DNA from: a virus
Direction: 5' to 3' (one strand)
Length of the DNA stretch: 63,136 bases
IMG/VR virus record: IMGVR_UViG_3300036770_007416
Location: 1-63,136 of that record
A model generated the notes under the pieces. That model did no database searches. It saw only the letters and a list, made by a program, of their open reading frames with translations, and had not been told where the DNA came from. Made by a program: the position numbers and the translations under genes. Positions 8,299 to 42,437 of the stretch are shown one piece after another. Position 1 is the first letter of the stretch. Each line of letters starts with the position of its first letter.

Positions 8299-8300
8299 AA

Positions 8301-9356: not shown

Positions 9357-9357
9357 T

Positions 9358-10938: not shown

Positions 10939-10940
10939 AA

Positions 10941-11327: not shown

Positions 11328-11376
11328 AGTGTTTTTTTTACAATGTAGGTGAATTTTCCGAAAAAAAAACTTTTTA

Positions 11377-14157: not shown

Positions 14158-14170
14158 TTGTGTAAGTTTT

Positions 14171-14956: not shown

Positions 14957-14957
14957 T

Positions 14958-17820: not shown

Positions 17821-17823
17821 TTT

Positions 17824-18621: not shown

Positions 18622-18627
18622 ATTAAA

Positions 18628-19398: not shown

Positions 19399-19402
19399 TC
19401 TT

Positions 19403-19954: not shown

Positions 19955-19959
19955 TTTTT

Positions 19960-20652: not shown

Positions 20653-20655
20653 TTT

Positions 20656-23617: not shown

Positions 23618-24324
23618 CTTAGAGATTTTAGTTTCATTATTACGTCAACCAATACTTGAACATCACGCTCACAGTATTCGGCAATTTCTTTTAACATTTT
23701 TTTATTCCAATAGGAATCGTGTACTTTAGACCCAACTACCTCACCTTCCTTCGGTGATGGGACTTCCATACAGGCACACAACAAGTCCAATGAACCGATT
23801 GCGGTATATGCACCGAATTGCCAAACTTCTTTTGTATCGATAGCCTTAACTTCCCAAGGCTTGGTATCATAAGACGGAAGAATTGATGGTGGAAGAATAT
23901 TTTGAATCAACATTCTTTTTGCCATCATAGGGATGTCAAAGTTTTTCAGGTTGTGACCACACAACCAAAAGTCCAACTTTCCACATCGGTCAAGAAGAAT
24001 TTGAACTTCTCTCAGAAGTTTGTGCTCATCATCCCCAGCAAATGTTTGTTTTTTTACTGTTCCATTTTCCATGACAAAGGCAACACTTACGCAAACAATC
24101 TTTGCAAATTCAGGGACCAATGCGGCTCTTGTTGCAAAGACAATATTCTTTTGGTCTACCTCAATTTCTTTATCCTCAGGAAATCTTTTGAGGAACCAAT
24201 CGAAGTACTTGTCAAATTGGTCTGCAACACGTGGGTGATTTTTTACCAAATCATCATAATTTTTTTCCAAACCGACAGTCTCGATATCCAAGAAAAGAAT
24301 TTTATGTGTGGGTACTTTAATCAT
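23614..24324 (-). CDS. DnaQ/PolB-type 3'-5' exonuclease, 236 aa
   Basis: RNase H-fold DEDD exonuclease. The four acidic sites are visible: FLDIET at residues 11-16 (D13, E15), GHNLKNFDIP near 117-126, the Asp within AIDTKEVW near 162, and YCERDVQVLVD near 218 (DEDDy type, with Tyr). It resembles the stand-alone predicted exonucleases related to the proofreading domain of family B polymerases. Together with the adjacent dut it forms a two-gene nucleotide/DNA-maintenance island inside the sugar cassette. Confidence 0.87.
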   Translation of the reverse strand: MIKVPTHKILFLDIETVGLEKNYDDLVKNHPRVADQFDKYFDWFLKRFPEDKEIEVDQKNIVFATRAALVPEFAKIVCVSVAFVMENGTVKKQTFAGDDEHKLLREVQILLDRCGKLDFWLCGHNLKNFDIPMMAKRMLIQNILPPSILPSYDTKPWEVKAIDTKEVWQFGAYTAIGSLDLLCACMEVPSPKEGEVVGSKVHDSYWNKKMLKEIAEYCERDVQVLVDVIMKLKSLR

Positions 24325-24334
24325 TTTGTTTTTT

Positions 24335-25549
24335 TTATTTAATTAGACTTTTGTAAAACTCAGCACGGTCAAGGGTAACAATATTCAAATCATATTTTTT
24401 ACTAACTGTCTCGTATAATCTTTCTCCCATGTCTTGTACCAAGTTCGGATTCTTGAGAAGTTTAATAATAAACTTGGACCAGTCGGAGTGATTTCGACTC
24501 TCACTAACAAGAAGCGCGTTACCATCAACAAATTCACCGTTTTTCAAACAATGCTTTAAGTCAATGGTGTAAGGACCCAAATCTGTTGCAATCAGAGCTT
24601 TTTTGTAAAATCCCGCCTCAATGACTTTGAGTTGTGACTTCATCCTGTTGAACATATGATTTTTAATCGGTGCTAAAGATACGTCAAATTTTGCGTAGTT
24701 CTTCGCGTAAGACGTTACAGGAAGAGTCCAAACTCTCCTGTAGGATTCTCCAAGATATTCGGGATACTCCTCTTGAGTATATTTTTTCAGAACTTTTTCG
24801 TATTCAGGACTTACGTAATTGTAATTCTGTGTAAAGATTTTCTCATACGACGCCCAAACTGTTTCCTCGGGTTTAATGGGACGTTTTTTGTGTTCACCCG
24901 TTTGAGCATTAATTTCTGTGATTGTACCCCTCGTATCAAAACCACAAAGAACAAATTGTAATTCCTTGTAGTGTTGACTCAACTTTGCAAATGAACTATC
25001 TAAAAGTTGTAAATCACCCAAGTGGGAAGAACCACCTAACCAACCAACTCGTAATTTATCCGACTCTGTTGTTTTTTCTTTGAATTGTGCCTCGTCAGGG
25101 TTAATTGCGTTTGGAAACACAAAAACATTTTTATTGTACTTTCTAATTTCGTCCGCAAACAAAGGGGTTGTGGTAGTAACGTAATCTGATTGTTTGATAC
25201 TATTAACGATTTTTTCGTTAATTTTGTTGTACATAATTACATCATAGATTGGGTGGTCCTTAGTAGGATTCCAATAATCGTCCATGTCACAAACAGTAAT
25301 AATGCCCAAACTTTTGAGGGTTTCGACTAACTCAAACGACTTTTCGAAATCATTAGTAATACTACGGTGATAAACAACAATTTGAAATTTCTTGAAGAAA
25401 TTCAAATCATTTAAGGGAGGATTCAAATCTATTTCTACATGAAAATCCTCAGGAAATTTATTTTGTAAAAAAATGTGGGGTTCTATGGAACGAAATTTTC
25501 CAACACCAAATCTGTCTGATGGTACTACAAGTACATTAATTTTTGACAT
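24335..25549 (-). CDS. GT4-like GT-B glycosyltransferase, 404 aa
   Basis: Begins with a Rossmann strand INVLVVPSDRFGVGKFRS and continues with a two-domain GT-B layout. The second half starts near 170 with LRVGWLGGSSHLGDLQ, the nucleotide-binding glycine-rich loop, and has APIKNHMFNRMKSQLKVIE near 305-323, a variant of the E-x7-E region. Closely similar proteins are frequent in environmental T4-like phages next to structural genes. First gene of the cassette on this strand, 57 nt downstream of the preceding small virion gene. Confidence 0.83.
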   Translation of the reverse strand: MSKINVLVVPSDRFGVGKFRSIEPHIFLQNKFPEDFHVEIDLNPPLNDLNFFKKFQIVVYHRSITNDFEKSFELVETLKSLGIITVCDMDDYWNPTKDHPIYDVIMYNKINEKIVNSIKQSDYVTTTTPLFADEIRKYNKNVFVFPNAINPDEAQFKEKTTESDKLRVGWLGGSSHLGDLQLLDSSFAKLSQHYKELQFVLCGFDTRGTITEINAQTGEHKKRPIKPEETVWASYEKIFTQNYNYVSPEYEKVLKKYTQEEYPEYLGESYRRVWTLPVTSYAKNYAKFDVSLAPIKNHMFNRMKSQLKVIEAGFYKKALIATDLGPYTIDLKHCLKNGEFVDGNALLVSESRNHSDWSKFIIKLLKNPNLVQDMGERLYETVSKKYDLNIVTLDRAEFYKSLIK

Positions 25550-28208: not shown

Positions 28209-31200
28209 ATGGCATACCAAAATATCAATCAGTACAATTATAGGAAGATTGGCCTGAAACCCGTCAATGAAATTTTAGATTTCTGTTTGGCAGATGATGC
28301 TCGGGATTTCAACCAAGAAGTTATTTTTTCGCCACTTTTGATTGCGGAGAATGATGGAAATAGGATGCCTTTTAATTTTGATTTTAATTCTACAGGTACA
28401 ACCATATCTCCTGTACGACATGAGTTTTTATACGACACAATTGTTTCTCAAAATTATTACAATCCATCAGATATCGACCCGAATTTTTGTGCAAAAACCA
28501 CTGAGATTTGTGACGTTGGTTTAACAGGTATCGACAATGGATTAACAAAAGAAATGTCGGGTATTACAATGACCGCATACACAGGTCTTTATACCACAAC
28601 AGCCGAAACTTTTAATAGATACATCTACGACAGAAGGTTCAAGATGCACCCAATCTCAGGAAACACCACACCTCAAAATCGTTTGTGGAATGACAATTCT
28701 TATTCTTACGGGCTTTCTTATGTAAATGCTGGTGGTGACATCGGAACAGTTGCTCAACTTAACGGTGGATTTTATCAAGGTTTTTACAAGCTTCAAGGTT
28801 ATGACTACCAAGTATTCCCAACTCGTATGAGTCAAGGGTGGACGGTAGAAATGATGTTGAAATATAGGTTTACTGGTGATACAAACGTTGGACTCAACGC
28901 TCGTTATCCTGAAAACAAAGGTATTTTCTTTTTCTTAGGAACAAGAGCGGAAAACAAATTTTATCACTATGCCGATGGCCACCCGTCTTCTGACACAGGT
29001 TACACACGAGTAACTTCAGGACTTACTTGTATGCACACTTGTGGGTGTTCTGTAACGGGAGGTACAGGTGCTGATTGTATTCCTGTCTACCAACCATCAG
29101 GTGTAACATCATCGAATTGTAATTGTGGTTGTCCGTGTAGTTGTTCCACTCAAGCATCTGTCAAGGAATTAGACCCATTATATGATGGAGTATCAAACGC
29201 TATGTCGATACGTTTTAGTGGTGATACTGGTAATCCAAGAGTTTGTGTAAAAGAATATCTAATCACGGGAAGCTGTATCCCATCAGGAACTTGTTTGACA
29301 GGGACTAGTTTTGTGACAGGAGTTACAACCGTTGAGTGGTGTTCGACTCGTGGTATTTTTGAAGATTGTAAATTTACCCCCTACATTAATTTGGAACACT
29401 GGGTTCAGATTGATGCGGTGTTTGAACGGAACGCCTACTTGGATTGTAAAGACCTTGATTATTTGGGGGGTTTAGGTCAAATAGAACAAGAGGTCTTCAC
29501 TGCCACATCGGCCAATAATAGTATCAGTTTAGTAACTGACCCAATTACTCACGAAGAAGGATATTCGGGATACAAACCAGCCAAAACAACACAGGTTGAA
29601 ATCACCGACTTGTGGTTGGAGGAAAGGAAATACAGACTCGGGACTCTGAAAATTTTCGTCAACGGTAAACTCCTTATGGTCTGTGAAGACTTTGAGGAAA
29701 TTATACCAAGACCTCTTAACACATACAAGGAGAGACAAGTTGGTGTTCCATTTAATATTTCGATTGGTGGAGGAACACAAGGACTAAAAGACAACTTAAC
29801 TTTTTCAGGTGGATGTCCTCCTGAAATTTCGGAAATAGTCTATCAACAAGACCCCGAGTGTCTGACAACTGAAGATTTGGATAATACAATTTATTCAGGA
29901 CTGTCAACAAACATTTACCTCGAAGAAATTTTCGGAGGTAGTTTTATCGGAGCCATCAGTGCATTCAGAATGTATGTTGACCCATTAGATGCCTCTGAGG
30001 TTAAACACAACTTCAGACTGCTTCAAAACAAATATGGACTTCTTGACCCTGATTGTCCGAACTGTGCTATTATTGTTCCCGCGAATGACCTCACTTATCT
30101 TGTTATTCCTGACGAAGATTTAGTTTATTTAATCATTCCTGATGATGATTTGGGTTACATTTTGATTCCTGAAAACGACTTAACATATGAAGAGTTGTTA
30201 GGGAATATTGTTGATGTGCAGTCTAATTATTCTCAGGGGTCGATTGTTGGAGATTTTTCTGCAGTTGGTAGTAGAGTTTTCGATGTACCAACAACCATCA
30301 GTTTCACAGTACAACTTGACACACTTACGGGGTCTCCAATAAATGAGGAGGTCAATATCTTTATAGATACGGGTGAGATTTCGGGAACAACTTCTAATGA
30401 AGTCGGTGGTAATTACCGTGATTTGTCTCTTTCGGGTTCTTACTTAAGTCTTAGCGCAAATACTTCAGGTCAGAGTATTAATATTTTCTCATTTACTACA
30501 GGTATAACTTTCGAAGTTCTTGAGACGGTTACTCCAACCCCAACGGTTACAAACACGCAAACTCCAACTAACACGCCTTCAAACACCCCATCAGTAACAA
30601 CTACTCAGACCCAAACAAATACTCCATCAAATAGCCAAACACCAACTAACACACCTTCGAACACACCATCGGGTACTGTAACTCCAACTCAGACCGCAAC
30701 AACTACAATGACACCAACCCCGAGTGCGACAGTTGGGTTGACACCAACCGCAACTGAATCACCAACACCAACTCAGACATTAACTCCAACAAATACTGAA
30801 ACGCCAACAAATACCCCGAGCGAAACACCAACAAATACTCCAACCTCAACTTTTACTCAAACCCCAACTCAAACTTCAACTGAAACCCCAACTAACACAC
30901 CCACATCCACAAACACTGAAACTCCAACCGAGACTCCTACGAATACACCAACTGAGAACCCAACAAATACACCAACCCATACGGCAACTCCAACTCCAAC
31001 ACCAACTTTACCGAATGAAGGATTCTTACTTCAAGAAAATTTGTTTATGATTCTTCAAGATGATGGTTACGGAATTTTGATTGAACCAATTCAAGCAACA
31101 CCCACGCTGACTCCAACACACACTCAAACACCAACACCAACTGTTGGGACAGTGACAATTGAGTTAGAAGGTGAATATTCACCTGGGTCAATTAATGCTC

Positions 31201-32966
31201 TTTACATTGCAACAGCAAACACAACATTGGATTCGGATGTTGAAATATTTTTTGTTGATGTATTAGGTACAACAACAGGTTCTCCAATTTCTCTGAGCGG
31301 TTCCGTTATTATAACTTCAGGTTCAAGTGTTGGAACGAGTTATTATACAATTGCCGGTGATTACGCTGAATTAAACAAAGTTTCAAACTTTAATGAAATT
31401 ACTTATGAAGTTACTGGCTCAAGCATAAATGTTCAAGTTAATACCAATTCTGTTTTTGATGTTACACCTACCCCAACAAACACATCTTCAATCACTCCAA
31501 CACCAACTATAACACCAAGTTCAAATATCGTAACTTCAGGTTTGATAATTCAACTTGATGCCAATAATACAACGAGTTACCCGGGTACAGGTACTTCAGT
31601 ATTCAATTTACAAAGTGGTTCATACACACACACATTAACAAATGCACCATTTACAATTTTGAATGGTATCAAATGTTTTGATTGTAATGGTCTCAGTACA
31701 ACAATTTCAGTTCCTAATGATACAGGTCCAATACTACCTACGACAGGCTATACTTACATAACTTGGGCAAGAATTAAAACAAGTTCTTCAACATACAGAA
31801 CTCTATTTAGAACCTTACCTTCGGACCACCCTATACTAGTTGATATTCTAACTGATAATTTAGGTTTTTGGAATAACGAGACCTCATCATTTACTGACTC
31901 GGGATATGATGTAACACCAATTGAAGACGTTTGGGTTCAATATACAGTTGTTGGTGATTCTTCAAGTAGTATATTCTACATTAATGGTGCACAAGTTGGG
32001 ACTGTTGCTTTGGGGGCGGGTGGAAATACCCATTGGGCTTGGGGTTCAATTGTTGGACAACCTTTCGGATATGTTGCTAACATGTATTTTTACAACAGAA
32101 AACTTTCCTTGGGTGAAATTACACAACAATACGATTTCTTAGCACCAAGATTTGTTGAACCATCTCCAACACCTACCAACACTCCCACTAACACTAATAC
32201 CCCTACTGTTACACCAACAACATCCCCTACGGTTACCCCAACAATTACACCAACACCATCATCAACACCTGCGATTGTAACAAATAATTTACAATTCTAT
32301 GTTTCACCTGAAAGTTACATTGGTTCAGGAACTGTTTGGAATTCCTCCGCTGGTTCAACAGATGCGACTTTATCAGGAAGTCCCACATACAACGTATTGA
32401 GTGGATTCACATTTGACGGTAGTACTTCTTATGGTAGAATACCAAGTGTGAATGGAGTCACGAATTTTACAAACACACAACAATATACTGTCGAAGTGTG
32501 GTTTAATCCTTCAAATGGACAACCAAACTCAGGTGAAGCGGAATTGTTGGAGAAGTGGAATTTGAATAACGAATCAAGATACCCATATACTATTAGATTT
32601 AATGAAGGGGGTAGTAGTATGTTAGTTGCTGTTTTTGATGGTACAGGTCCAGGTTTCCGTAACGTTTCAGTTTCTGGTTTCCCTGTAAACACATGGAGAC
32701 AGATTGTTGCGGTATTTGATTTTGTCGCTGGAACCCTCACAGTTTATAATAACGGTGTTTCGGGTGGTTCAACTAGTTTAGTTGGTGTGGGACAAGTAAG
32801 TAACACAAGTCCTGTAGGTATTGCGGGTAGAGTCGCTCAAGGTACAGGGGCTTTGCAAGTTCCATTCAAAGGTACCGTCGGAATTATAAGAATATACAAT
32901 GCACCATTGACGGCGTTTCAAGTTTTACAAAACTTCAATGCCGATAAAACCAAATACGGACTCTAA
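28209..32966 (+). CDS. giant mucin-like fibre/adhesin with LamG-like domains, 1585 aa
   Basis: A modular virion adhesin. Residues 1 to about 620 look like a beta-sandwich lectin-like region with a Cys-rich insert near 272-315 (CNCGCPCSC). At 626-661 lie three and a half 10-residue acidic repeats. A beta domain follows (about 668-770), then a long Thr/Pro tract (about 774-934), a second beta domain (about 980-1080), short Thr/Pro linkers, and two LamG/ConA-like domains (about 1105-1315 and 1360-1585) with VWFNPS and [10 protein letters not shown] segments typical of LamG. The C-terminal lectin domains probably bind a surface sugar. The first of the plus-strand fibre genes, with a promoter-like box 9 nt upstream. 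Tail-fibre location is inference. Confidence 0.8.
30084..30191 (+). repeat. 30-bp coding repeats, acidic 10-residue unit
   Basis: Three full units and a partial one encode [10 protein letters not shown]-like decapeptides ([36 protein letters not shown]) in the giant fibre protein. The alternating acidic pair and Tyr-hydrophobic strand would form a small stacked beta structure, perhaps metal-binding. Confidence 0.8.
30529..31010 (+). repeat. long Thr/Pro-rich tract in giant fibre gene
   Basis: About 160 codons in which Thr alternates with Pro, Asn, Gln, Glu or Ser ([10 protein letters not shown]-like). Low complexity at both DNA and protein level; the largest such tract of this gene. Shorter ones lie at about 31099-31145, 31462-31530 and 32158-32276, each linking two folded domains. 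Confidence 0.9.
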
Positions 32967-32973
32967 TATTTAT
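32967..32973 (+). promoter_or_regulatory. TATTTAT box, gene 32982-33623
   Basis: Begins on the base after the TAA stop of the giant fibre gene; 8 nt before the next ATG. Confidence 0.4.
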
Positions 32974-32981
32974 AAAATAAA

Positions 32982-33623
32982 ATGCCAAATTTACCCATAT
33001 CCCAATTACCTGACATCTCAACTTCGAGTGCTGGAAGACTTATCTCAACAGGAGAATTTGCCGTTGCCCAAGATGGTACAACATATAAAGTTCCAAGTTC
33101 AGGTCTAAACCCCTATCCTGTTGTTTACGGATTGTTTTCTCAAACAGGAAATAGTGTAACCGTAAGTGGTACTACTTCAGAAACGACAATATTGGGAAGT
33201 GGAACCGGAACACTGAGTGTACCTGCAAATGGTTTTTCAGTTGGTGATAGTTTTCAGTGTATTATCGGTGGAATTTTGGACAATACAAATGATACTCTAA
33301 CAATCAGACTGAAGACTGGCTCTGTTATTCTTGCTGAGAGTAGCGCTTTTGACCCATCATCAGATGAAGATATTTTCTTTATGAACGTATACTTTACAAT
33401 AAGGGCAATCGGTACCACGGGTGTTGCATCAATATCAACTCATGGAAATTTCCAAGTAGTTAAAGGTAACGGACAAGTTTATGGGACCGCGTTTCAAACA
33501 ATAAATAATTCCACTTTCGACACCACAATTCCAAATACTTTGGATATTACAGTTCAATTTAGCAGTGATAACCCATTGAATTTGATTTATAGTGATTTAT
33601 TTGTTTTGAACAAGATATTTTAA
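32982..33623 (+). CDS. fibre/tail accessory protein, 213 aa
   Basis: The N-terminus (PNLPISQLPDIS, then GEFAVAQDGTTYKV) is the short attachment pattern found at the start of many phage tail and fibre proteins. The rest is beta-rich, with GTGTLSVPANGFSVGDSF near 75-92, a motif I know from phage fibre and receptor-binding tips with a jelly-roll or TNF-like fold. No Thr/Pro tract, unlike its neighbours. It starts 15 nt after the giant fibre gene and has its own TATTTAT box. It may be the knob or a cap of the fibre. Confidence 0.72.
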   Translation: MPNLPISQLPDISTSSAGRLISTGEFAVAQDGTTYKVPSSGLNPYPVVYGLFSQTGNSVTVSGTTSETTILGSGTGTLSVPANGFSVGDSFQCIIGGILDNTNDTLTIRLKTGSVILAESSAFDPSSDEDIFFMNVYFTIRAIGTTGVASISTHGNFQVVKGNGQVYGTAFQTINNSTFDTTIPNTLDITVQFSSDNPLNLIYSDLFVLNKIF

Positions 33624-33641
33624 TTTCTTAACAAAAACCTC

Positions 33642-34208
33642 ATGTCTTGTTTATACTACAGAATAACCAATTATAATTCCATCCAAGATGGTTATTATAA
33701 GTGGACAGGTTGTACTGGTAGTGTAAACATTACTCAAATATCCCCTTTATTTTCTGAAAGTATTTGTGCAGAATCAATTACAGTTGAGTTGTATGGTGCA
33801 CCTTTGACAATAGTTAATATGGGTCCTTGTCCATCTTCAACACCAACACCCACGGTTTCACCTTCAGTCACTCCAACAGTGAGTCTTAGTGCGACTCCAA
33901 CGACACAAACCCCCACACCAACAAATACTGTTACACCATCTGTAACCCCTTCTCCCGTTTATGTGAGAAATTTGAGAACGGGTGGATATTTTCAAGATGT
34001 CTGTCAACAAATAAATCAATTTGGTGGGTTTGCCGCTAACGTCACGGTGTATTCAACAAAACCATTCAACCAATTAACAGTCGGAGACCATGTATTTGGT
34101 AACCGAGAGTTAACGATACCACCAATCGGAGCAAACTTTACAATTTCTGATGGGGTAAAAATTATTCAGATAAGTGGAACACTAATAATCAATACCGGTG
34201 TTTGTTGA
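33642..34208 (+). CDS. mucin-like virion protein with Cys module, 188 aa
   Basis: Three parts are seen: an N-terminal Cys-containing domain (residues 1-64, starting MSCLYYRITNYNS) shared with the protein at 36206; a Thr/Pro/Ser tract (about 65-105); and a C-terminal module (about 107-188) with VC and a final GVC. The C-terminal module is the simplest copy of the ~80-residue unit repeated in the next two genes. It has no own promoter-like box in the 18-nt gap, so it is likely co-transcribed with its neighbour. Function: fibre or decoration, by inference. Confidence 0.72.
   Translation: MSCLYYRITNYNSIQDGYYKWTGCTGSVNITQISPLFSESICAESITVELYGAPLTIVNMGPCPSSTPTPTVSPSVTPTVSLSATPTTQTPTPTNTVTPSVTPSPVYVRNLRTGGYFQDVCQQINQFGGFAANVTVYSTKPFNQLTVGDHVFGNRELTIPPIGANFTISDGVKIIQISGTLIINTGVC
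33835..33955 (+). repeat. Thr/Pro/Ser tract in gene 33642-34208
   Basis: About 40 codons of the TPTVSPSVTPT type joining the N-terminal domain to the Cys module. Ser and Val are more common here than in the other tracts. Confidence 0.85.
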
Positions 34209-34232
34209 TAAAAACTAATTCGAGATTTTGAG

Positions 34233-34239
34233 TATTTAT
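34233..34239 (+). promoter_or_regulatory. TATTTAT box, gene 34244-36142
   Basis: Context AGTATTTATTG, 4 nt before the ATG; another candidate for a leaderless message. Confidence 0.4.
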
Positions 34240-34243
34240 TGTT

Positions 34244-36142
34244 ATGGCTTTAGGTATAAGAATTTTAAGTGAAAATTTAAGCGGACAAACTGTTAACGTT
34301 ACTTACTTACCATCTTCAGGTGGAACAATCGATTTGGGTACTCAAGTTATCCCGTTCAATTACTTAAGTTCTTACTACTTTGGACTCTACGAGGTTTACT
34401 CACCAACATATGGATATACCTACACCTTGGAAGTACCAGGTCCATCACCTTCTCCTACGCCCACTTCAACAGCAACACCAACGCCAACGCCAAGTGTAAC
34501 GGTAACAAATACACCAACAGGAACGCCAACATCAACACCTTCAACAACACCAACTAATACTCCAACTGAAACCTCAACACCCACACCGAGTCCTTCAAGA
34601 GCTACGTTCTTGGTATATTCGGGTACATCGGCCATCGATGCTTGTGAAAGAATTGTATCTACGGTACTTTACGGAGACAACAGTCAATTTGATTTGAACA
34701 CCCAATTCTTCAACACACCAACAGGACCATCAACAATTGATTTAACAGGATATTACAGTTATAACTCGTTGATTGTTGAATTGAACTCTTTGGGTGTGGA
34801 GATAGGTGGCTACAGTATTTGTCCTACAGTAACAAGTACAGTTACACCAACTCAAACTGAGACGCCAACACAGACCCCATCACAAACGCCAACACAAACG
34901 ATTACTCAAACACCAACAAGAACACAGACTCCAACACCTTCAATAAATTACTATACGTATTTTGTTGGTTCAGGTTCAACTTTTGATGATGCATGTTATA
35001 ACTTTGTGGGTTCACCATTCAACATTTATGCACCTTTATCTGCGGGTATCGGACCAAACGTGTTCGAAATTGTTTATGAAACAGGTGGTAATCCACCAAC
35101 AAACCCAGTTGGGGACGGATTCTATTCTAATGGAATCTACGTATTTGAAGTAAGCGGAGGTCAAGGTGAAATTATTTTCTTGGACCCAAATGGTTGTTTA
35201 GATGCACCAACACAAACACCAACTCAGACTCAGACTCAGACTCCAACAAACACTCAGACTCCAACACAAACTCAAACACCGACTAATACTTCAACACAAA
35301 CACCGACAGCAACACAACCAAATAGAACTGCCTTTAGCGTATACAGTGGTACATCAATTATCGAATCTTGTTCTGAGGTTAATACCCCAGTGACAGTATA
35401 TGGTAACAATTCAGTATGGGGAGATGTCACCGCAATTTTGAATGTACCTACAGGTCCCGCAACGATTGACATGACAGGGTTCTATAATTTCGGAGGAATT
35501 TCAATCGAAGTTGATTCCACGGGACAGTTGGTTTCGGCCTCTTTATGTATAACTCAAACACCAACACATACACCAACTCCGACAACAACACCATCTGAAA
35601 CACCAACTCAAACACCTACCGAAACTCCGACAAATACCCCGTCTGAGACACCAACTCAAACACCTACAGAAACACCTACCGAAACTCCGACAAATACCCC
35701 CTCTGAAACACAAACTCAAACACCTACGGGAACACCTACAGAAACCCCAACTCAGACACCAACAGAAACACCCACGGGAACACCTACAGGAACCCCAACG
35801 CCAACTCCGACAATACCAGCTACAGTCCAAATTAAAAACGAAAATACTAATGGTGCAATTATAAATTCTATTGGGGCCGCTGGTAATTGGGCATTCTCTC
35901 CCACTCCGTCTTTCCCTATTTTATTTGGAGAAACTGGTTTTAGTTATTTGACTCAAAATATTTTAAGTGGTGACATACTTACTTACGATATACAAGGAAC
36001 TAGCGGACCAACTTTTACTTTGACCATCCTGAAGAATGGTATCTTTGTAGATAGTATTACTAACACAGTTCCGTATGCAGACGCTTATGTATTTACAGAA
36101 AGTTTCTTGATAACGGATATATTAACAATAACTCTTACTTGA
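34244..36142 (+). CDS. mucin-like multi-module virion protein, 632 aa
   Basis: Beads on a string: an N-terminal beta domain (1-64), then Thr/Pro tract, Cys module 1 (about 119-192), tract, Cys module 2 (about 236-320), tract, Cys module 3 (about 360-433), a long tract (about 436-525) and a C-terminal beta domain (527-632). The modules share a central x-A-C or E-S-C and end with a Cys after a Gly/Ile strand, so each may hold one disulfide. The tracts alternate Thr with Pro, Gln, Asn or Glu, as in mucins. The TATTTAT box is only 4 nt before the ATG. Very likely a long extended fibre or decoration protein. Confidence 0.75.
   Translation: MALGIRILSENLSGQTVNVTYLPSSGGTIDLGTQVIPFNYLSSYYFGLYEVYSPTYGYTYTLEVPGPSPSPTPTSTATPTPTPSVTVTNTPTGTPTSTPSTTPTNTPTETSTPTPSPSRATFLVYSGTSAIDACERIVSTVLYGDNSQFDLNTQFFNTPTGPSTIDLTGYYSYNSLIVELNSLGVEIGGYSICPTVTSTVTPTQTETPTQTPSQTPTQTITQTPTRTQTPTPSINYYTYFVGSGSTFDDACYNFVGSPFNIYAPLSAGIGPNVFEIVYETGGNPPTNPVGDGFYSNGIYVFEVSGGQGEIIFLDPNGCLDAPTQTPTQTQTQTPTNTQTPTQTQTPTNTSTQTPTATQPNRTAFSVYSGTSIIESCSEVNTPVTVYGNNSVWGDVTAILNVPTGPATIDMTGFYNFGGISIEVDSTGQLVSASLCITQTPTHTPTPTTTPSETPTQTPTETPTNTPSETPTQTPTETPTETPTNTPSETQTQTPTGTPTETPTQTPTETPTGTPTGTPTPTPTIPATVQIKNENTNGAIINSIGAAGNWAFSPTPSFPILFGETGFSYLTQNILSGDILTYDIQGTSGPTFTLTILKNGIFVDSITNTVPYADAYVFTESFLITDILTITLT
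34438..34600 (+). repeat. Thr/Pro tract 1 of gene 34244-36142
   Basis: Links the N-terminal beta domain to Cys module 1. Further tracts of the same gene are at about 34837-34948 and 35206-35320, each about 37 codons, between modules. Confidence 0.88.
35551..35818 (+). repeat. Thr/Pro/Glu tract with 60-bp periodic DNA repeats
   Basis: About 90 codons ([16 protein letters not shown] type). At DNA level a 30-bp block is identical at 35611-35640 and 35671-35700, a 60-bp period, a sign of recent tandem duplication. Confidence 0.88.
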
Positions 36143-36182
36143 TGAATTTTTCCCGAAAAAACAAATTTAAGCTCAGGACTAA

Positions 36183-36189
36183 TATTTAT
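36183..36189 (+). promoter_or_regulatory. TATTTAT box, gene 36206-37414
   Basis: Context AATATTTATAA, 16 nt before the ATG, in the 63-nt gap between two mucin-like genes; the rest of the gap shows no structure. Confidence 0.4.
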
Positions 36190-36205
36190 AATATAAAAAA
36201 CAACA

Positions 36206-37414
36206 ATGGCTTGTAGAAAATATATTTTGACCAACAACACTTCATCGAATGGAGTTTATTCTTATCAGGAATGTTCAAATCAACTGTGGATTTATGACAT
36301 TCTCTTACCAGCCGGTTCAGTCAACAACATTTGGTTGACAGAAGGAACTTTTAACACCGCAATGCCTGCAATCGTTACTTTTACGGACTTGGGACCTTTT
36401 CCATTCGTCGTTACACCAACATCTACCGTAACAAGTACTCCAACGCCAACAATGACCCCAACTCAAACTCAAACACAAACTCCAACCCAAACACAAACTC
36501 CAACTCAAACCGAAACACCGACCCAAACCTCAACACAAACACCTTCGGCCACCACTACCCTTACAGCATCACAAACTCAGACACAAACTCCAAGTCAGAC
36601 CGAAACACCAACCCAAACCCCAACTCAAACTCAGACACAAACTCCGAGTCAGACAACCACCCAAACTCCAACAAATACACACACTTCAACTCAGACCATG
36701 ACTCCAACTCCGAGTGTAACACCACCAATAAGGACCGCATTTTTAGTTTACCCAGGTTCAACGTTAGTTGAATCTTGTAGTCAAACATTATCACAAATCA
36801 CTGTTTACGGAAATGATGCTGTTTGGGGAGACGTGACAGCAGTGCTTGATGTACCAACTGGACCAGCAACTATTAATATGACTGGTTTCTACAACTTCAA
36901 TGGTATTAGTATCGAGGTTGATAGCACGGGTCAATTCGTTAACATTTCTACATGTGTAACACCAACACAAACAACAACAAACACATCAACTCCAACGGAA
37001 ACACCAACCAACACACCGACACCAAGTGAATCACCGACTCAGACTCCTACATCAACTGAGACACCGACTCAGACTCCTACATCAACTGAGACACCGACTC
37101 AGACGCCAACTCAAACCGCAACACCAACTGAAACAACAACTCAGACACCAACACCAACACCAACAATATCTTATTGGGTTTATACTTTGACATCAGGAGC
37201 AACCGCGAACGATGCGTGTACAAGTGTAACAACATATACAATTTATTCGAGTTCATCGTTCCCTCAAGGACCAACAGTTGGGGAATTCTTATTCCTTGAT
37301 TCAGCACTGACTAATCCTGTAAATAACGGATGGTGGGGAGACGGTTCTTCCGCATTCGAAACTGATGACACCATAGGTTCACCAGGACAAATATTAACTG
37401 AAGACCCTTGTTAA
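36206..37414 (+). CDS. mucin-like virion protein with two Cys modules, 402 aa
   Basis: The N-terminal domain (1-68, MACRKYILTNNTSSNG) pairs with that of the 33642 protein. A long Thr/Pro/Gln tract (about 70-173) follows, then a Cys module (about 175-250) almost identical in layout to module 3 of the preceding protein, including VWGDVTAVLDVPTGPATIN, a second tract (252-322) and a last module ending in the final Cys. Near-identity of modules between two genes points to recent duplication. The transcription unit ends at a strong terminator 8 nt after the stop codon. Confidence 0.75.
   Translation: MACRKYILTNNTSSNGVYSYQECSNQLWIYDILLPAGSVNNIWLTEGTFNTAMPAIVTFTDLGPFPFVVTPTSTVTSTPTPTMTPTQTQTQTPTQTQTPTQTETPTQTSTQTPSATTTLTASQTQTQTPSQTETPTQTPTQTQTQTPSQTTTQTPTNTHTSTQTMTPTPSVTPPIRTAFLVYPGSTLVESCSQTLSQITVYGNDAVWGDVTAVLDVPTGPATINMTGFYNFNGISIEVDSTGQFVNISTCVTPTQTTTNTSTPTETPTNTPTPSESPTQTPTSTETPTQTPTSTETPTQTPTQTATPTETTTQTPTPTPTISYWVYTLTSGATANDACTSVTTYTIYSSSSFPQGPTVGEFLFLDSALTNPVNNGWWGDGSSAFETDDTIGSPGQILTEDPC
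36412..36725 (+). repeat. Thr/Pro/Gln tract of gene 36206-37414
   Basis: About 105 codons dominated by Thr-Gln and Thr-Pro pairs. The second tract of this gene is at about 36958-37170. Confidence 0.88.
37032..37104 (+). repeat. perfect 30-bp tandem repeat, 2.4 copies
   Basis: Units at 37032-37061 and 37062-37091 are identical, followed by 13 matching bases. In frame, encoding the decapeptide TPTQTPTSTE. Such perfect units can expand or contract by slippage without breaking the frame. Confidence 0.92.
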
Positions 37415-37421
37415 ATTTACG

Positions 37422-37449
37422 ACCCCTCTTTTGAGGGGTTTTTCTTTTT
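37422..37449 (+). terminator. Rho-independent terminator after mucin-like gene block
   Basis: Stem ACCCCTC/GAGGGGT (37422-37428 with 37433-37439), loop TTTT, followed by a U-rich run interrupted by one C. It separates the Thr/Pro-rich virion genes from the GT60 operon, so substrate-like proteins and modifying enzymes are likely transcribed as separate units. Confidence 0.85.
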
Positions 37450-37503
37450 CTGATATTCAGTTTGTAATCTTATTGTTTATTTTTTTTGTAAAAAATTGGA
37501 TTA

Positions 37504-38751
37504 ATGAAAATATTTGTTCAGATTGCCTCTTATAGAGACCCCCAACTTGTTCATACGTTAAAGAACATGATTGAAAATGCTAAACGACCAAAAAACCTAA
37601 GAATTGGTATTGCAAGACAGTTTAGCCCCGACGATAAATTTGATGATTTAACCGAATACGAAAAGGATAAAAGATTCAGAATTCTGAATATCCCATACCA
37701 AGAAGCGCAGGGTGTTTGTTGGGCACGTAACTTAGTACAACAACTTTATGAAGGGGAGGAGTACACACTTCAAATTGATTCTCATATGAGATTTGCCCCG
37801 AATTGGGACGATGAGATGATTAAAATGATTAAGCAACTTCAGAAGAAAGGTCACAAAAAACCTCTGTTGACTGGTTACGTTTCTTCATTTGACCCTGACA
37901 ATGACCCGGCAGGAAGAGTTCAAGAACCTTGGAGAATGGTGTTTGATAGATTTATACCTGAGGGTGCAGTATTCTTTTTACCTGAGACGATACCAGGTTG
38001 GAGAGATTTGAAAGAACCAACTACTGCAAGATTTTATTCGGCCCACTACGCATTTACATTGGGACAATTTTCCAACGAAGTTCAACACAATCCGAATTAT
38101 TATTTTCATGGTGAAGAAATTTCGATTGCTGCTAGAGCATATACTTGGGGTTATGATTTGTTCCACCCCCATAAGGTTTTGATTTGGCACGAATACACAC
38201 GTAAAGGAAGAACCAAACAATGGGATGATGACAAACAATGGGTTGACCGAAATAATAAATCACACCTCACCAACCGAAAGTTGTTTGGTATGGACGGTGA
38301 AATTCAAGAGGGTCATGATGGACCATTTGGATTTGGAACTGAAAGAACGTTGAGAGATTACGAAAAGTATTCAGGTTTGTTGTTTGAAAAAAGAGCGGTA
38401 CAACAATATACTTTGGACAAACATTATCCACCAAACCCCTACAACTACGAAACTGAAGAAGATTGGAAGAAAGACTTTGCTCAAGTTTTCAAACATTGTA
38501 TTGATGTAGGTTACCCTAGTGTGCCTGAAACTGATTATGATTTTTGGGTTGTTGCTTTCCACGGAGAAGATGATTCCACATTATTCAGAAAAGACGCCGA
38601 CAAGGCAGAGATTTCAAGAATGATGAATGACCCTGACAAATATTGTAAGATTTGGAGAGAATTCCAAACCACGCAAAAACCTAAGTATTGGGTTGTGTGG
38701 CCTCACTCAGAATCTAAAGGTTGGTGTGACCGTTTAACAGGAAATTTGTAA
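37504..38751 (+). CDS. GT60-type polypeptide GlcNAc-transferase-like enzyme, 415 aa
   Basis: Has the GT60 (Pfam GlcNAc) pattern in order: KIFVQIASYRDPQL at the start, RNLVQQLYEGEEYTLQIDSH near 79-94 with the DSH metal site, HMRFAPNWDDEM, then FHGEEISIAARAYTWGYDLF near 201-220 and VLIWHEYTR. Characterised eukaryotic members, in Dictyostelium and Trypanosoma, attach GlcNAc to hydroxyproline or Thr of proteins, including Thr/Pro-rich mucins. Here the gene directly follows four genes for Thr/Pro-rich virion proteins, past a terminator. It is a cytoplasmic GT-A enzyme without a membrane anchor. Substrate is inference, but the match of enzyme family and neighbouring substrate-like proteins is striking. 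Confidence 0.85.
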   Translation: MKIFVQIASYRDPQLVHTLKNMIENAKRPKNLRIGIARQFSPDDKFDDLTEYEKDKRFRILNIPYQEAQGVCWARNLVQQLYEGEEYTLQIDSHMRFAPNWDDEMIKMIKQLQKKGHKKPLLTGYVSSFDPDNDPAGRVQEPWRMVFDRFIPEGAVFFLPETIPGWRDLKEPTTARFYSAHYAFTLGQFSNEVQHNPNYYFHGEEISIAARAYTWGYDLFHPHKVLIWHEYTRKGRTKQWDDDKQWVDRNNKSHLTNRKLFGMDGEIQEGHDGPFGFGTERTLRDYEKYSGLLFEKRAVQQYTLDKHYPPNPYNYETEEDWKKDFAQVFKHCIDVGYPSVPETDYDFWVVAFHGEDDSTLFRKDADKAEISRMMNDPDKYCKIWREFQTTQKPKYWVVWPHSESKGWCDRLTGNL

Positions 38752-39479
38752 TGGACTTAAATAATATTTACAAATACGTTGTCAATTTAGATAGAAGAAC
38801 TGACAGGATGGAATCCATAAAATTTGAAATGGATTACATTGGTTGGGAGTATGAAAGGTTTAGTGCAATTGACACTAATAGTCACGGTGGTTGTTCTTTG
38901 TCACACATTGAAATAATAAAACAAGCAATCTCGAAAGGGTTGGATGAAGTGATGGTTATTGAGGACGATTGTTCGGTTATGCCCTATGCAAAGTCTTTGA
39001 TAGAAAAAATTACCTCAGATACTGAAGGTACTGAATATGGTATTTTGAACTTATCACCAACACTTAATCGTCCTGTGAATAAAAGTGAACGACATAGTAC
39101 TTTATTGGATTTAACAAATTTCCCACCAATGATGGAACATCATAGAGGAATTTTTGCAACAAACATGATTGTCTATCATCATAGTATTTACGATGAGGTT
39201 TTGAAATTGGAACCAAGAGAATTTTTGGGATACTATGCAATAGATGATTTCATTTATCAATTTGTTATGAGTAAACACCAAAGTTATGCACCTGTTTTAC
39301 CAATTGCACCACAAATAAGTGATTGGTCGGATGTATCTCACGGTAACTATAATAATTTTTACACTCAAACTTATAATTGGAATCAATATTCTCCAATAAA
39401 AATTCCTTCCGAATTTCTCAATCTTGGATACAATATTCAAACTAAACAAGAAAAACTTTTTCACGATATTTCTTTATGA
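38751..39479 (+). CDS. GT25-family glycosyltransferase, 242 aa
   Basis: GT25 signature: IYKYVVNLDRRTDRMESI at the N-terminus, GGCSLSHIEIIKQA near 45-58 and VMVIEDDCSVM near 66-76 with the EDD metal site. Members include LPS beta-galactosyltransferases and collagen hydroxylysine galactosyltransferases (GLT25D). It shares its first base with the GT60 stop region (the ATG overlaps TAATG), so the two enzymes are coupled. A second step on the glycan begun by GT60 is a reasonable inference. Confidence 0.88.
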   Translation: MDLNNIYKYVVNLDRRTDRMESIKFEMDYIGWEYERFSAIDTNSHGGCSLSHIEIIKQAISKGLDEVMVIEDDCSVMPYAKSLIEKITSDTEGTEYGILNLSPTLNRPVNKSERHSTLLDLTNFPPMMEHHRGIFATNMIVYHHSIYDEVLKLEPREFLGYYAIDDFIYQFVMSKHQSYAPVLPIAPQISDWSDVSHGNYNNFYTQTYNWNQYSPIKIPSEFLNLGYNIQTKQEKLFHDISL

Positions 39480-40357
39480 AAACTAAATTTATTACATGTA
39501 TTTACAGTGACCTAAACGGTACTGAATTAGGAGGAAGACCTGGCAGAGGAGGACATTATAGATGGAGTTTAATGTCCTTACTTAAAATGACTGATGCAGA
39601 TTTTGTTTGTTACACTTCTGATAGAGAGTACGAATCACTCATTGAGTTTTTTTATAATATGCACAATGTTTCACCTCAAAAATTGGAAATCAAGGTTTTT
39701 GACATTACAAAAACACGACACGCAAAAAGACTCAATGAAATAAAACAAGTCGATTTGATTAAGTGGGGTGATAGATGTTTAGAAATACAATATGCGAAAT
39801 TTGAATGGTTTGATTATGAAGATGGTTCGTATGACAACTATTTTTGGATTGATGCTGGTCTATCACATACAGGTTTAATTCCAAACAAATATTTGATTGG
39901 CACCCATCCTGAAAGGAGATATTACGATTCAACTTTGTTTAACAATGAATTTTTGAAAAACTTAATAGAATTCACTGGTGATAAATTTTTCATGATAGCA
40001 AAAGATAATGAAAGAAATTATTGGTCAGGCACTGTAGACCCCAAATGGTACAATCAATACGACAGGTCCTTACACGTTGTTGGGGGTTTGTTTGGGGGAA
40101 AAAGAGAACAATGGAGACAAATGGTAGATTTATTTGACAATTATCTGTCACAAATAATGGAAGTAGATAGTCAACACCCTTATGAGGAATTGATTATGAC
40201 TTTGATATTTTTCAATCATCCTGATTTGATTAGTAAAAAGTTATTTGACGTTTGGTGGTCTCCTGACTCTGGCATAAGTGGTTTACAAGAAGATTTCTTT
40301 ATTATTAACAGAAGTTTCTATAAAATATTTGAAGAGTTTAATGGAATATATGAATAA
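39476..40357 (+). CDS. HtrL/YibB-like protein, probable GT-A glycosyltransferase, 293 aa
   Basis: Resembles the HtrL/YibB family, in which a Rossmann-like N-terminus (KFITCIYSDLNG) is followed by an F-W-I-D-A-G motif, here YFWIDAGLSH near 121-130, corresponding to the DxD-type site. C-terminally comes HVVGGLFGGKREQW, the family's second conserved patch. Members occur in LPS and capsule loci and are treated as glycosyltransferases, though few have been tested. It overlaps the GT25 gene by 4 nt. Confidence 0.78.
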   Translation: MKTKFITCIYSDLNGTELGGRPGRGGHYRWSLMSLLKMTDADFVCYTSDREYESLIEFFYNMHNVSPQKLEIKVFDITKTRHAKRLNEIKQVDLIKWGDRCLEIQYAKFEWFDYEDGSYDNYFWIDAGLSHTGLIPNKYLIGTHPERRYYDSTLFNNEFLKNLIEFTGDKFFMIAKDNERNYWSGTVDPKWYNQYDRSLHVVGGLFGGKREQWRQMVDLFDNYLSQIMEVDSQHPYEELIMTLIFFNHPDLISKKLFDVWWSPDSGISGLQEDFFIINRSFYKIFEEFNGIYE

Positions 40358-42020
40358 GGTAACTTTTGTAACGGGACTTTGGAACATAAAAAGGGACCAA
40401 CTCTCAGAGGGTTGGTCTCGCTCATTTGAGCATTATTTGGAAAAGTTTGACCAACTTCTAAAAATAGAAGCAAACCTTATCATATTTGGTGAAAAGGAAT
40501 TAGAAGATTTTGTGTGGGAAAGAAGAAATCGTGAAAACACACAGTTTATTGTTCGTTCAACAGATTGGTTTGTCAATGACTTCCACACAAAAATACAATC
40601 AATTAGAACAAACCCCGATTGGTACAATCAATCAGGTTGGTTACCAGAATCAACCCAAGCAAGACTTGAGATGTACAATCCACTTGTTATGTCTAAAATG
40701 TTTTTACTTAATGATGCTCGAATCTTTGATAATTTTGATTCATCCCATCTTTTTTGGCTTGATGCCGGTATAACAAACACTGTACATCCTGGTTATTTTA
40801 CTCACGATAAGATTCATGAAAAATTTGACAAGTTGTTTAATAAATTTGGATTTATTGCGTTTCCTTATGATGCCGAGAGAGAAATACATGGATTTTCATA
40901 CCCCAAAATAAATCAATATGCGGGTGGAAATGTAAAGTTGGTTTGTCGGGGAGGAATTTTTGGTGGTACTAAAGATTCTATCAGTGATGTGAACGGGATT
41001 TACTACAATGTGATGAACCAAACACTGAACGATGGTTACATGGGTACTGAAGAATCTTTGTTCAGTATTCTTCTCTACAGACACCCCGATATTTTTGATT
41101 ACTACGAAATTGAGTCCAACGGACTAATTGGTAAATTTTGTGAGGATGTGAAAAACGATACTCATAAAGTAAAAAATATACAAGGAAAAACATCTTATTC
41201 AGATTTGAAGTTTGACAATAGTGCTCTATATGTAATAACATTTAACAGTCCAAAACAATTCGAGACACTCTTGAAATCCATGGAGTTATATGATAGAAAC
41301 TTTATTGATAAACCCAAAAAGTTTTTATTGGATAACTCATCAGATTTGACAACTACGGAAAGGTACATTGAATTGTGTGAGGAATATGGATTTGAGCACG
41401 TAAAGAAAGATAATTTAGGAATTTGTGGTGGTCGTCAATGGATTGCAGAACACTCTCACGAAAACAAATTTGATTTTTATTGGTTCTTCGAAGATGATAT
41501 GTTTTTCTACGGAGGACAGGACCAAGTTTGTAAAAACGGATTTATTAGAAAAATTGATGATTTGTACAACAAATCTCTTCAGATTACGAAGAATCACTCC
41601 TTGGATTTTCTGAAACTTAATTTTACAGAATTTTACGGAGACAATGGTACCCAATGGTCATGGTACAATGTACCCCAAAACGTCAGGGAGGAATATTGGC
41701 CCGAAAAACCTACATTACCAGTTCAAGGTTTGGACCCGAATGCTCCACGAACGAAGTTCAATGAAATCAGGTCATACAAAGGTGTTGCATTTGGAATTGG
41801 TGAAGTTTATTATTGTAACTGGCCACAAGTTGTCACAAAGTATGGTAACGAAAAAATGTTTTTGACAACAAAATGGGACAGACCTTTTGAACAAACATGG
41901 ATGAGTTACATTTATCAAGAAACTAAAAAAGATAATATCAAACCAGGTTTGTTGATGGCAACACCCACCGAACACGATAGATTTGAATTCTACGATGGAA
42001 AACTAAGAAAAGAGTCCTAA
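40350..42020 (+). CDS. HtrL/YibB + GT-A fusion glycosyltransferase, 556 aa
   Basis: The N-terminal half (about 1-275) is a second HtrL/YibB-type domain: NKVTFVTGLWNIKRDQL, LFWLDAGITNTVHPG near 132-146, and a CRGGIFGGTKDS patch. The C-terminal half (about 290-556) begins SALYVITFNSPKQFETLLKS, as in a GT2-like enzyme, with FYWFFEDDMFF near 377 as the acidic metal site. Two transferases in one chain again suggest processive addition. The start was set at 40350, where ATG overlaps the previous stop; ATG at 40341 and an upstream frame from 40278 are alternatives, but the latter lies inside the previous gene. Confidence 0.8.
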   Translation: MNKVTFVTGLWNIKRDQLSEGWSRSFEHYLEKFDQLLKIEANLIIFGEKELEDFVWERRNRENTQFIVRSTDWFVNDFHTKIQSIRTNPDWYNQSGWLPESTQARLEMYNPLVMSKMFLLNDARIFDNFDSSHLFWLDAGITNTVHPGYFTHDKIHEKFDKLFNKFGFIAFPYDAEREIHGFSYPKINQYAGGNVKLVCRGGIFGGTKDSISDVNGIYYNVMNQTLNDGYMGTEESLFSILLYRHPDIFDYYEIESNGLIGKFCEDVKNDTHKVKNIQGKTSYSDLKFDNSALYVITFNSPKQFETLLKSMELYDRNFIDKPKKFLLDNSSDLTTTERYIELCEEYGFEHVKKDNLGICGGRQWIAEHSHENKFDFYWFFEDDMFFYGGQDQVCKNGFIRKIDDLYNKSLQITKNHSLDFLKLNFTEFYGDNGTQWSWYNVPQNVREEYWPEKPTLPVQGLDPNAPRTKFNEIRSYKGVAFGIGEVYYCNWPQVVTKYGNEKMFLTTKWDRPFEQTWMSYIYQETKKDNIKPGLLMATPTEHDRFEFYDGKLRKES

Positions 42021-42038: not shown

Positions 42039-42437
42039 ATGGAATTTTTTATTAGAAAGAATGCAACACTACCTGTACTTAAAATGCAAGTAGTTCAAGA
42101 TGGACGTAGTAGTTATGGTGACACCATGGAATTTTTGGAACTATCCACCATTTTCTTTTCGATGGTCAACGTTCAAACAGGTATTCCCAAAATTGTTGGT
42201 GCCCCTTGTTCGATTGTAAGTCTAATTCCAAATGAGTTGGGTGCTCCTGTAGAATATTACATATATTACCAATTTACCACACGAAACACTGACACACCTG
42301 GTAGGTACCAAGGTCAATTCTTAATCAAGAACACTGGTTTACTCGGAACTCAACAAGGAAGTTTAATAGTTCCAATACGAGAGGAGCTCTACATTAACGT
42401 AGAGGATAGTTTTATTTCAGAACAAGCTTGTTGTTAA
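42039..42437 (+). CDS. small virion-type protein, 132 aa
   Basis: Beta-rich protein; the segment FFIRKNATLPVLKMQVVQDG at the start resembles the N-terminal domain of BppU-like phage baseplate upper proteins and other tail-attachment domains. It contains GRYQGQFLI near 85-95 and ends in SEQACC. A TATTTAT box lies 6 nt before its ATG. The gene stands between the glycosyltransferase set and the polymerase. A tail or fibre-anchor role is inference. Confidence 0.6.
   Translation: MEFFIRKNATLPVLKMQVVQDGRSSYGDTMEFLELSTIFFSMVNVQTGIPKIVGAPCSIVSLIPNELGAPVEYYIYYQFTTRNTDTPGRYQGQFLIKNTGLLGTQQGSLIVPIREELYINVEDSFISEQACC

Follow-up and report, generated by a model that had tools for sequence, protein, structure and literature searches.

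A putative mucin-type self-glycosylation system in large phages that pairs Thr/Pro-tract genes with a GT60-like glycosyltransferase

Introduction

Why would a phage carry a run of genes for threonine- and proline-rich proteins ahead of an operon of glycosyltransferases (GTs)? The question is raised by IMGVR_UViG_3300036770_007416, a linear 63-kb virus record (63,136 nt, analysed over its whole length and called the window here), in which open reading frames (ORFs) with long Thr/Pro tracts are followed by a gene for a GT60-like enzyme and by further GT genes (Table 1). A preliminary description of this DNA had proposed that the phage O-glycosylates its own mucin-like fibres, the GT60-like enzyme adding the first sugar. 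Phage-encoded GTs are commonly read as modifiers of DNA or of the host surface (PMC12619734, PMC10202952, PMC4691112, PMC7824862; here and below, published reports are cited for the parts of their text available to us), and glycosylated structural proteins of phages have rarely been identified so far (PMC5852040). We find that tracts and enzyme recur together in many large phages and in some bacteria, and viruses with this pairing therefore probably sugar-coat their own particles.

Results

Under the window rule used to mark them, the tracts of the four tract ORFs sum to 797 residues, among them 315 Thr, 154 Pro and 65 Ser with only 7 Lys plus Arg, that is 40% Thr and 19% Pro against 6.0% and 3.9% in the other window ORFs of at least 150 amino acids (aa). 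At that background the binomial chance of finding at least 12 Thr in one 40-residue stretch is 2.5e-6, and the scan marked no further window ORF of at least 80 aa. The spacing of Thr is regular, with 248 of 311 neighbouring Thr pairs in the window tracts exactly two residues apart. Thr codons (ACA/ACC/ACG/ACT) are used alike inside the tracts (145/45/27/98) and in the same ORFs outside them (97/26/20/66), as they are in 22 other loci, so that the tracts are a feature of the protein; an origin as a DNA microsatellite or repeat is ruled out by this codon use. The tracts are therefore of the mucin type: long, rich in Thr, Ser and Pro, dense in hydroxyls and kept at the protein level.

All four genes had been described as virion-like. 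Their tracts and coordinates hold, and direct virion-type matches were found for the gene at 28209 only, whose product contains one or more LamG/ConA-like domains (Pfam) and matches a virion structural protein family in PHROGs; we infer that this protein is placed in the virion. Its tracts cover residues 767-941, 957-987, 1081-1107 and 1312-1360, and its N-terminal 699 residues were modelled by AlphaFold with a predicted local distance difference test score (pLDDT) of only 38.5. A fifth ORF, free of tracts and absent from the earlier gene set, lies among the four. The terminator placed ahead of the GT operon was recovered as a terminator-like hairpin.

The 415-aa product of the first gene in that operon matches PF11397, which we take to be CAZy family GT60, with an E value of 1.3e-67 (229 bits against a cut-off of 21), and it also matches PHROG 24687, a phage glycosyltransferase family. 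Its DxH-type site (D92, S93 and H94) is unchanged in all 35 viral sequences of an alignment that reaches down to 46% identity, and recurs in the GT60-like proteins of phages XacN1 and RAS14; going by the motif, it is predicted to be the metal site of the enzyme. An AlphaFold model built from the 35-sequence alignment reached a pLDDT of 91.5. The best Foldseek matches were human GalNAc-T4 and GalNAc-T2 (N-acetylgalactosamine transferases; E about 3e-10), and in the structural alignment the top 28 rows were all polypeptide GalNAc-transferases, with Z scores from 22.2 down to 19.6 and the best row aligning 275 residues at a root-mean-square deviation of 3.4. The first protein of another kind followed at Z 19.3 over 186 residues and the next at Z 18.0. 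The predicted model is closest, among the solved structures compared, to polypeptide GalNAc-transferases, with the caution that a shared fold is no proof of function and that other GT-A enzymes score well too. A sequence search of the PDB found no solved relative.

The GT60 assignment of the preliminary description thus held at the DSH site and at the level of the fold. It agrees with the predicted structure in one further respect, since the fold is of the GT-A, GalNAc-transferase-like kind and Pfam found no ricin-like lectin domain in the protein, even at E 10; GT60 enzymes are polypeptide alpha-GlcNAc (N-acetylglucosamine) transferases whose main difference from the GalNAc enzymes is the lack of that domain (PMC8724618, PMC6939170). 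One of them works on Skp1 in the cytosol, and Dictyostelium mucin domains bear O-alpha-GlcNAc, in some cases apparently capped with fucose (PMC8724618, PMC6939170). Some phage records hold two GT60-type genes (G018:C1:55612-57749; L376, L378, L381 and L397).

Does the pairing extend beyond this record? When 2.9 million viral contigs were searched with the window enzyme, the best 80 of 151 relatives formed a near set; a search with a more distant query supplied a distant set (the best 80 of at least 497), and 272 viral loci drawn by arbitrary DNA words (152 plus 120 loci, 2463 kb) served as the random control. The density of tract ORFs is 9.85 and 8.27 per 100 kb for the near and distant sets and 0.20 per 100 kb for the control, where five ORFs lie in five loci: one among the 152 (0.07 per 100 kb) and one in each of four among the 120. 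By eye, two of these five (L219, L565) are of the TPTP type. The arrangement is strongly polar. Counting loci with at least 3 kb of sequence 5' of GT60, the end of a tract ORF falls no more than 3 kb 5' of the enzyme gene in 52 of 55 near loci, with a median gap of 91 bp and strand agreement in 50, and in 36 of 72 distant loci, where the strands always agree; within 3 kb on the 3' side there is none in 79 near and 76 distant loci. With the enzymes clustered at 98, 90 and 80% identity, a tract ORF is present in the locus in 82 of 108, 54 of 78 and 30 of 50 clusters, and within 3 kb 5' in 52 of 89, 36 of 71 and 16 of 46.

Over whole records of at least 60 kb, a TPTxTPTxT codon pattern was found in 47 of 49 GT60-positive records and in 2 of 18 random ones (Fisher 2e-11, a value inflated by relatedness, as evident duplicates among the 49 were reduced by eye to single records but near relatives are still present). 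The 18 belong to a control of 50 of the 152 and 50 of the 120 random loci, mostly longer records, in which the pattern appeared in 3 of 50 and 1 of 50 and PF11397 in none of either 50 (0 of 100). One of the two misses among the 49, G117, does have a tract ORF by protein scan (L039). In a second check of 22 loci, 11 lay in GT60-positive records, 10 of which had the pattern, the miss being G056; G058 and G059 among these 11 also belong to the set of 49, G057 is an apparent longer copy of another member, and G053 and G054 are alike.

The association also holds when it is approached from the tract. Among 44 loci picked by the tract of the 34244 gene, 40 records were searched (L050, L166, L168 and L171 were left out), and PF11397 was present in 19 of them and in 15 of the 17 of at least 60 kb. 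By nucleotide similarity, near copies make up seven of these 15 and a stretch of 3.6 kb is common to the two misses, which leaves 9 of 10 groups; in one miss, G035, the sequence breaks off inside the tract gene (L202). A set of 80 loci anchored on the polymerase contained 33 with both features, 39 with neither, seven with the enzyme alone, in each of which the sequence 5' of it is shorter than 1.5 kb, and one with the tract alone, at a contig edge; PF11397 was found elsewhere in 4 of 11 records picked from 40 without a local enzyme. Phage GT genes are in this way consistently paired with candidate virion acceptors, with G056, G137 and L165 among the exceptions, and the co-occurrence in other phages on which the preliminary description had staked its proposal is borne out. 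No report of the pairing was found in a literature search that left most subscription papers and all bioRxiv preprints outside.

Only three of 50,697 phage records, XacN1, CM1 and RAS14, contain GT60 (tblastn), and the same three alone match the HtrL-GT fusion over at least 80%. In XacN1 the GT60-like protein is ORF334, 47.5% identical to the window enzyme. The part of the 9.9-kb XacN1 gene ORF325 that was inspected contains Thr/Pro tracts, and this gene is the immediate same-strand successor of ORF323 and ORF324, which encode baseplate wedge proteins. The authors of the XacN1 report found at least two virion glycoproteins and proposed phage GTs as their makers (PMC5852040).

The enzymes downstream of GT60 are partly constant and partly exchanged. 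We compared 41 loci, the window and near copies included, with GT60 and polymerase both in view, and found 36 families in 13 arrangements between the two genes, with 24 loci sharing the window arrangement. Every interval contains both the HtrL-GT fusion and the small protein that precedes the polymerase, and the cassette between GT60 and HtrL-GT varies; constant first and last enzymes with a swapped middle would fit a common core glycan that is decorated differently. The operon had been described as GT60-like, GT25-like, HtrL-like and HtrL-GT genes. Matches to PF11397, PF01755 and PF09612 uphold three of these names, and the HtrL link of the gene at 39476, whose product has no Pfam match even at E 10, comes only through BLASTP to the next ORF. 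The fusion gene may start at the ATG at 40341, and a member of its family was also seen, by eye, on a Saprospiraceae contig.

A second sugar cluster on the opposite strand encodes three GT2-type enzymes, a two-domain GT2 plus GT4 protein, two GT4-like proteins below the Pfam cut-off, a DegT aminotransferase, a TylF methyltransferase and a HAD-nucleotidyltransferase, in addition to the genes in Table 1. The ORF at 11377-12741 (-) fuses HAD phosphatase-type and sugar nucleotidyltransferase-type domains and is possibly a two-step nucleotide-sugar enzyme, and that at 14171-14956 (-) encodes a 261-aa protein, with no Pfam match at E 10, in which an HRRDTD stretch recalls, as we see it, fucosyltransferase motifs. 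GT11 exceeds the cut-off in 9 of 50 GT60-positive records (window included; a tenth lies below it) and in 0 of 50 random ones; with only 9 of 50, fucose was rejected as a core feature and is better seen as a variable extra. The Pfam scan of 30 window ORFs revealed no prolyl hydroxylase. In G071, a record lacking GT60, a 2-oxoglutarate (2OG)-Fe(II) oxygenase is encoded close to the tract gene.

Tail-sheath (below the Pfam cut-off), tail-tube and baseplate-hub matches identify the window phage as contractile-tailed, and it is a large phage of aquatic type. We listed 71 window ORFs of at least 100 aa and scanned 30 proteins with Pfam and 20 with PHROGs. The tail-sheath-like ORF at 52708-55932 (+) is 1074 aa long, with a recognisable sheath part from about residue 790 that falls just under Pfam cut-offs. 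Of the 50,697 phage records compared with the window DNA polymerase, 35 matched, in no case over 80% of the query, and identity in the ten matches listed is 22-27%; by this measure no close cultured relative was found. In a GT60 tree built from 66 of the 70 rows selected (four bacterial ones were dropped for a length limit or for want of a match), viral and Bacteroidota enzymes are intermixed and the window clade falls in one starred group with Saprospiraceae proteins, which suggests a Bacteroidota host. The ORF at 47448-48974 (-) encodes 508 aa, of which residues 37-224 match both Fe/Mn superoxide dismutase domains (E 4e-40), with some 280 further residues after that part.

Bacterial relatives were collected in a single scan of GTDB species genomes, from which the best 80 of 252 were kept. 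A T/P/S-rich ORF lies within 3.5 kb of GT60 in 14 of these 80 loci (a count with no random bacterial control alongside). In L456 (titled Saprospiraceae), L463 (Jiulongibacter sediminis), L482 (Vicinamibacterales) and L506 (an unassigned bacterium), the Thr/Pro-rich ORF has a twin-arginine-like N-terminus, as judged by a regular expression rather than a signal predictor; L456 also has a type IX secretion system (T9SS) sorting domain and, by eye, the GT60 and HtrL-GT pair. The twin-arginine translocation (Tat) pathway moves proteins out once they are complete in the cytoplasm, in keeping with an initiator that is soluble and cytoplasmic. In L505, from a Sphingomonas metagenome-assembled genome (318-12331), GT60 lies in a contractile-injection locus (GPW_gp25, eCIS_core) beside an ORF of 1205 aa that combines a Pro/Thr tract with a glycoside-hydrolase-like domain; L508 resembles L505 in the T/P/S-rich ORF scan alone. 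Some bacterial GT60 contigs may be viral. Near-identical enzymes occur in L465 and L491, titled Planctomycetaceae and Gammaproteobacteria; both may be viral contigs binned with bacteria.

Table 1. Features of the tract-GT60 locus and of the second sugar cluster in the window
Feature	Position	Strand	Remarks
Tract ORF	28209..32966	+	1585 aa; virion-type; conserved N-terminal part; putative glycan acceptor
ORF without tract	32982..33623	+	213 aa; among the tract genes; no Pfam or PHROG family match
Tract ORF	33642..34208	+	188 aa; one 50-residue Thr/Pro tract; putative acceptor
Tract ORF	34244..36142	+	632 aa; four Thr/Pro tracts, 265 residues; putative acceptor
Tract ORF	36206..37414	+	402 aa; three Thr/Pro tracts, 200 residues; putative acceptor
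Terminator-like hairpin	37421..37440	+	Between tract genes and GT operon
GT60-like glycosyltransferase	37504..38751	+	415 aa; PF11397; DSH at residues 92-94; proposed initiator
GT25-type glycosyltransferase	38751..39479	+	PF01755, E 3e-12; family in 28 of 41 GT60-to-polymerase intervals
HtrL-like protein	39476..40357	+	Related to next ORF (BLASTP E 6e-7); family in 31 of 41 intervals
HtrL_YibB-GT fusion	40341..42020	+	PF09612 HtrL_YibB, E 1e-17; family in 41 of 41 intervals
Conserved small protein	42039..42437	+	Operon end, before polymerase; 41 of 41 intervals
Second sugar cluster	7492..25549	-	Possible donor and extension enzymes; other genes interspersed
GMD	13183-14157	-	Second cluster
Epimerase	16118-17053	-	Second cluster; read as GDP-fucose synthase
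GT11	17038-17820	-	Second cluster; fucosyltransferase family
GT10	17824-18621	-	Second cluster; fucosyltransferase family

Discussion

Our analysis supports the self-glycosylation interpretation, and the finding stands in a broader form than first stated. The phage probably glycosylates its own mucin-like virion proteins by a cytoplasmic, mucin-type route. Tracts, enzyme family, DSH site, predicted fold, gene pairing and variable cassette were observed here, and we infer the acceptor, the sugar and its linkage, the place in the virion and the benefit. A rough proposal would run as follows. Once made, the mucin-like virion proteins would be glycosylated inside the host cytoplasm, either ahead of assembly or while it proceeds. 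The GT60-like enzyme would set the first sugar, most likely GlcNAc from host UDP-GlcNAc (the uridine diphosphate donor), on the Thr residues that alternate along T-P-T-x tracts, with Thr rather than hydroxyproline as the acceptor. The variable enzymes (GT25, HtrL-like and the HtrL-GT fusion, possibly joined by the GDP-fucose and fucosyltransferase cluster) would extend and cap the chains. The glycosylated tracts, presumably fibres in all four proteins, would form stiff sugar-coated rods on tail or baseplate, and the variable cassette would allow the coat to change between related phages. Candidate functions of such a coat are protection from proteases, a stiff extended shape, adhesion and evasion of lectins.

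Several observations weigh against this proposal, the most pointed being L165, the tract-positive random records, G056 and a likeness of HtrL-GT to DNA-modifying enzymes. L165 (G001) encodes a homologous fibre with 305 tract residues, followed by unrelated genes, with no GT60 downstream or anywhere in its 64-kb record, and four of the 100 random records have the tract pattern without GT60. Conversely, G137 has GT60 and no tract pattern, and G056 has GT60 and no pattern in 219 kb, nor is there a Thr/Pro tract among its eight most S/T/P-rich ORFs. The C-terminal region of HtrL-GT resembles DNA glucosyltransferases (phrog_842, beta-glucosyl-HMC-alpha-glucosyltransferase, E 8e-6; TAGT, E 0.005, below the cut-off). 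Furthermore, the terminator-like site parts the tract genes from the GT60 gene, only half of the distant relatives have a tract within 3 kb 5', 14 of the 80 bacterial loci have a T/P/S-rich neighbour, and no tail fibres were seen on XacN1 by electron microscopy in its authors' hands (PMC5852040). It should be noted that SGSSGTSG repeats of Ser, Gly and Thr occur in GT60-positive records (L450:18108-19475 (-) of G056; L039:3-1007) and are possibly another type of acceptor.

The GT operon might instead remodel a host surface polysaccharide, for superinfection exclusion or capsule modification, and adjoin the fibre genes through a shared role in host recognition. The GT25, GT10, GT11 and HtrL families are known from lipopolysaccharide loci, the cassette differs between relatives as surface-modifying genes do, and a review of jumbo phages classes phage clusters for GTs and nucleoside diphosphate sugars as capsular polysaccharide modification (PMC7824862). 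We nevertheless think this explanation unlikely, as it leaves unaccounted for that the constant enzyme is of the polypeptide-transferase type, that GT60 lies 3' of the tract ORFs in particular (52 of 55 loci, with 0 of 79 showing the reverse order) and that a few bacterial relatives stand beside Tat-like tract proteins.

Slightly less likely still is that the tracts are bare spacers of large aquatic phages, with GT60 inherited alongside and not acting on them. That many of the records are relatives, that viral and bacterial GT60 lines mix in the tree, and that L165 and the four random records have tracts without GT60 all speak for such a view. However, the pairing persists, more weakly, across GT60 clusters down to 80% identity and is also found in XacN1/RAS14-type phages at about 52% identity. 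Moreover, other glycan genes adjoin the tract gene, or lie about 4 kb from it at most, in three of the four random records that have a tract but no GT60 (with no control for comparison): a GT32-type gene (L453:15519-16115), GMD (L452:2428-3420), and a GMD-like epimerase, a 2OG-Fe(II) oxygenase and a GT32-type gene (L451:9073-18480).

That the enzymes glucosylate modified phage DNA bases, as the T4 glucosyltransferases do, is very improbable despite the phrog_842 resemblance, since no base-hypermodification or hydroxymethyl-base gene was recognised in the proteins scanned from the window, itself a fragment (30 with Pfam and 20 with PHROGs, out of 71 listed ORFs), and since the Saprospiraceae contig, which has a uvrB-like gene by eye, places GT60 and an HtrL-GT-like ORF beside a tract protein.

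Returning to mucin-type self-glycosylation, the data hint at something more general, which we put forward tentatively and hold at a little below even chances: a general cytoplasmic module for mucin-type O-glycosylation in prokaryotes and their viruses, consisting of a GT60 initiator, a Thr/Pro-rich acceptor and an exchangeable cassette closed by HtrL-GT. Its targets would be phage tails or baseplates, bacterial surface proteins that are Tat-exported and in part T9SS-sorted, and an extracellular contractile injection system, and it would be homologous to the mucin and Skp1 pathway of protists.

In mycobacteriophages, the GTs for virion glycosylation are reportedly encoded by the phage. Their glycans are carried at the C-termini of capsid and tail-tube subunits (Freeman 2023, cited in PMC12619734), whereas the system proposed here would use long Thr/Pro tracts and a GT60-type initiator; the likeness lies in glycans on virion proteins. 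Chloroviruses and mimiviruses also glycosylate autonomously with virus-encoded GTs, the former with a GDP-fucose (guanosine diphosphate fucose) pathway (PMC4691112), but theirs are eukaryotic hosts and the glycans sit on Vp54 or on collagen-like proteins, not on Thr/Pro mucin tracts. The known GT60 polypeptide alpha-GlcNAc-transferases (Gnt1 of Dictyostelium and Toxoplasma, and the Trypanosoma cruzi mucin enzyme) share with the window enzyme the Pfam family, the DSH site and a GT27-like predicted fold, and offer precedents for cytosolic action and for mucin-type acceptors (PMC8724618, PMC6939170). The differences are that the gene described here is a phage gene with a variable cassette adjoining and with a putative donor, acceptor and linkage, and that the prolyl hydroxylase of the Skp1-type system has no recognised counterpart among the window ORFs scanned. 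XacN1 shares with the window phage a GT60-like enzyme, ORF334, and its authors propose phage GTs as the makers of its glycoproteins; in the parts of that report available to us, GT60, mucin tracts and their pairing go unmentioned and the glycosylated ORFs are not named (PMC5852040).

Virus-coded glycosylation of virions is thus already known, and what appears to be new, as far as the literature search reached, is the recurrence in large phages of mucin-type acceptor tracts together with a GT60-type initiator. If the proposal is true, acceptor tract and initiator together would allow glycan-coated phages, and the position of the coat, to be predicted from sequence, and the chain-diversifying enzymes that adjoin them would make up a natural library. 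Soluble cytoplasmic enzymes of this kind would be available for making mucin-like glycoproteins in E. coli. Finally, mucin initiation of the GT60 type, which has been studied in protists, would extend to bacteria and their viruses.

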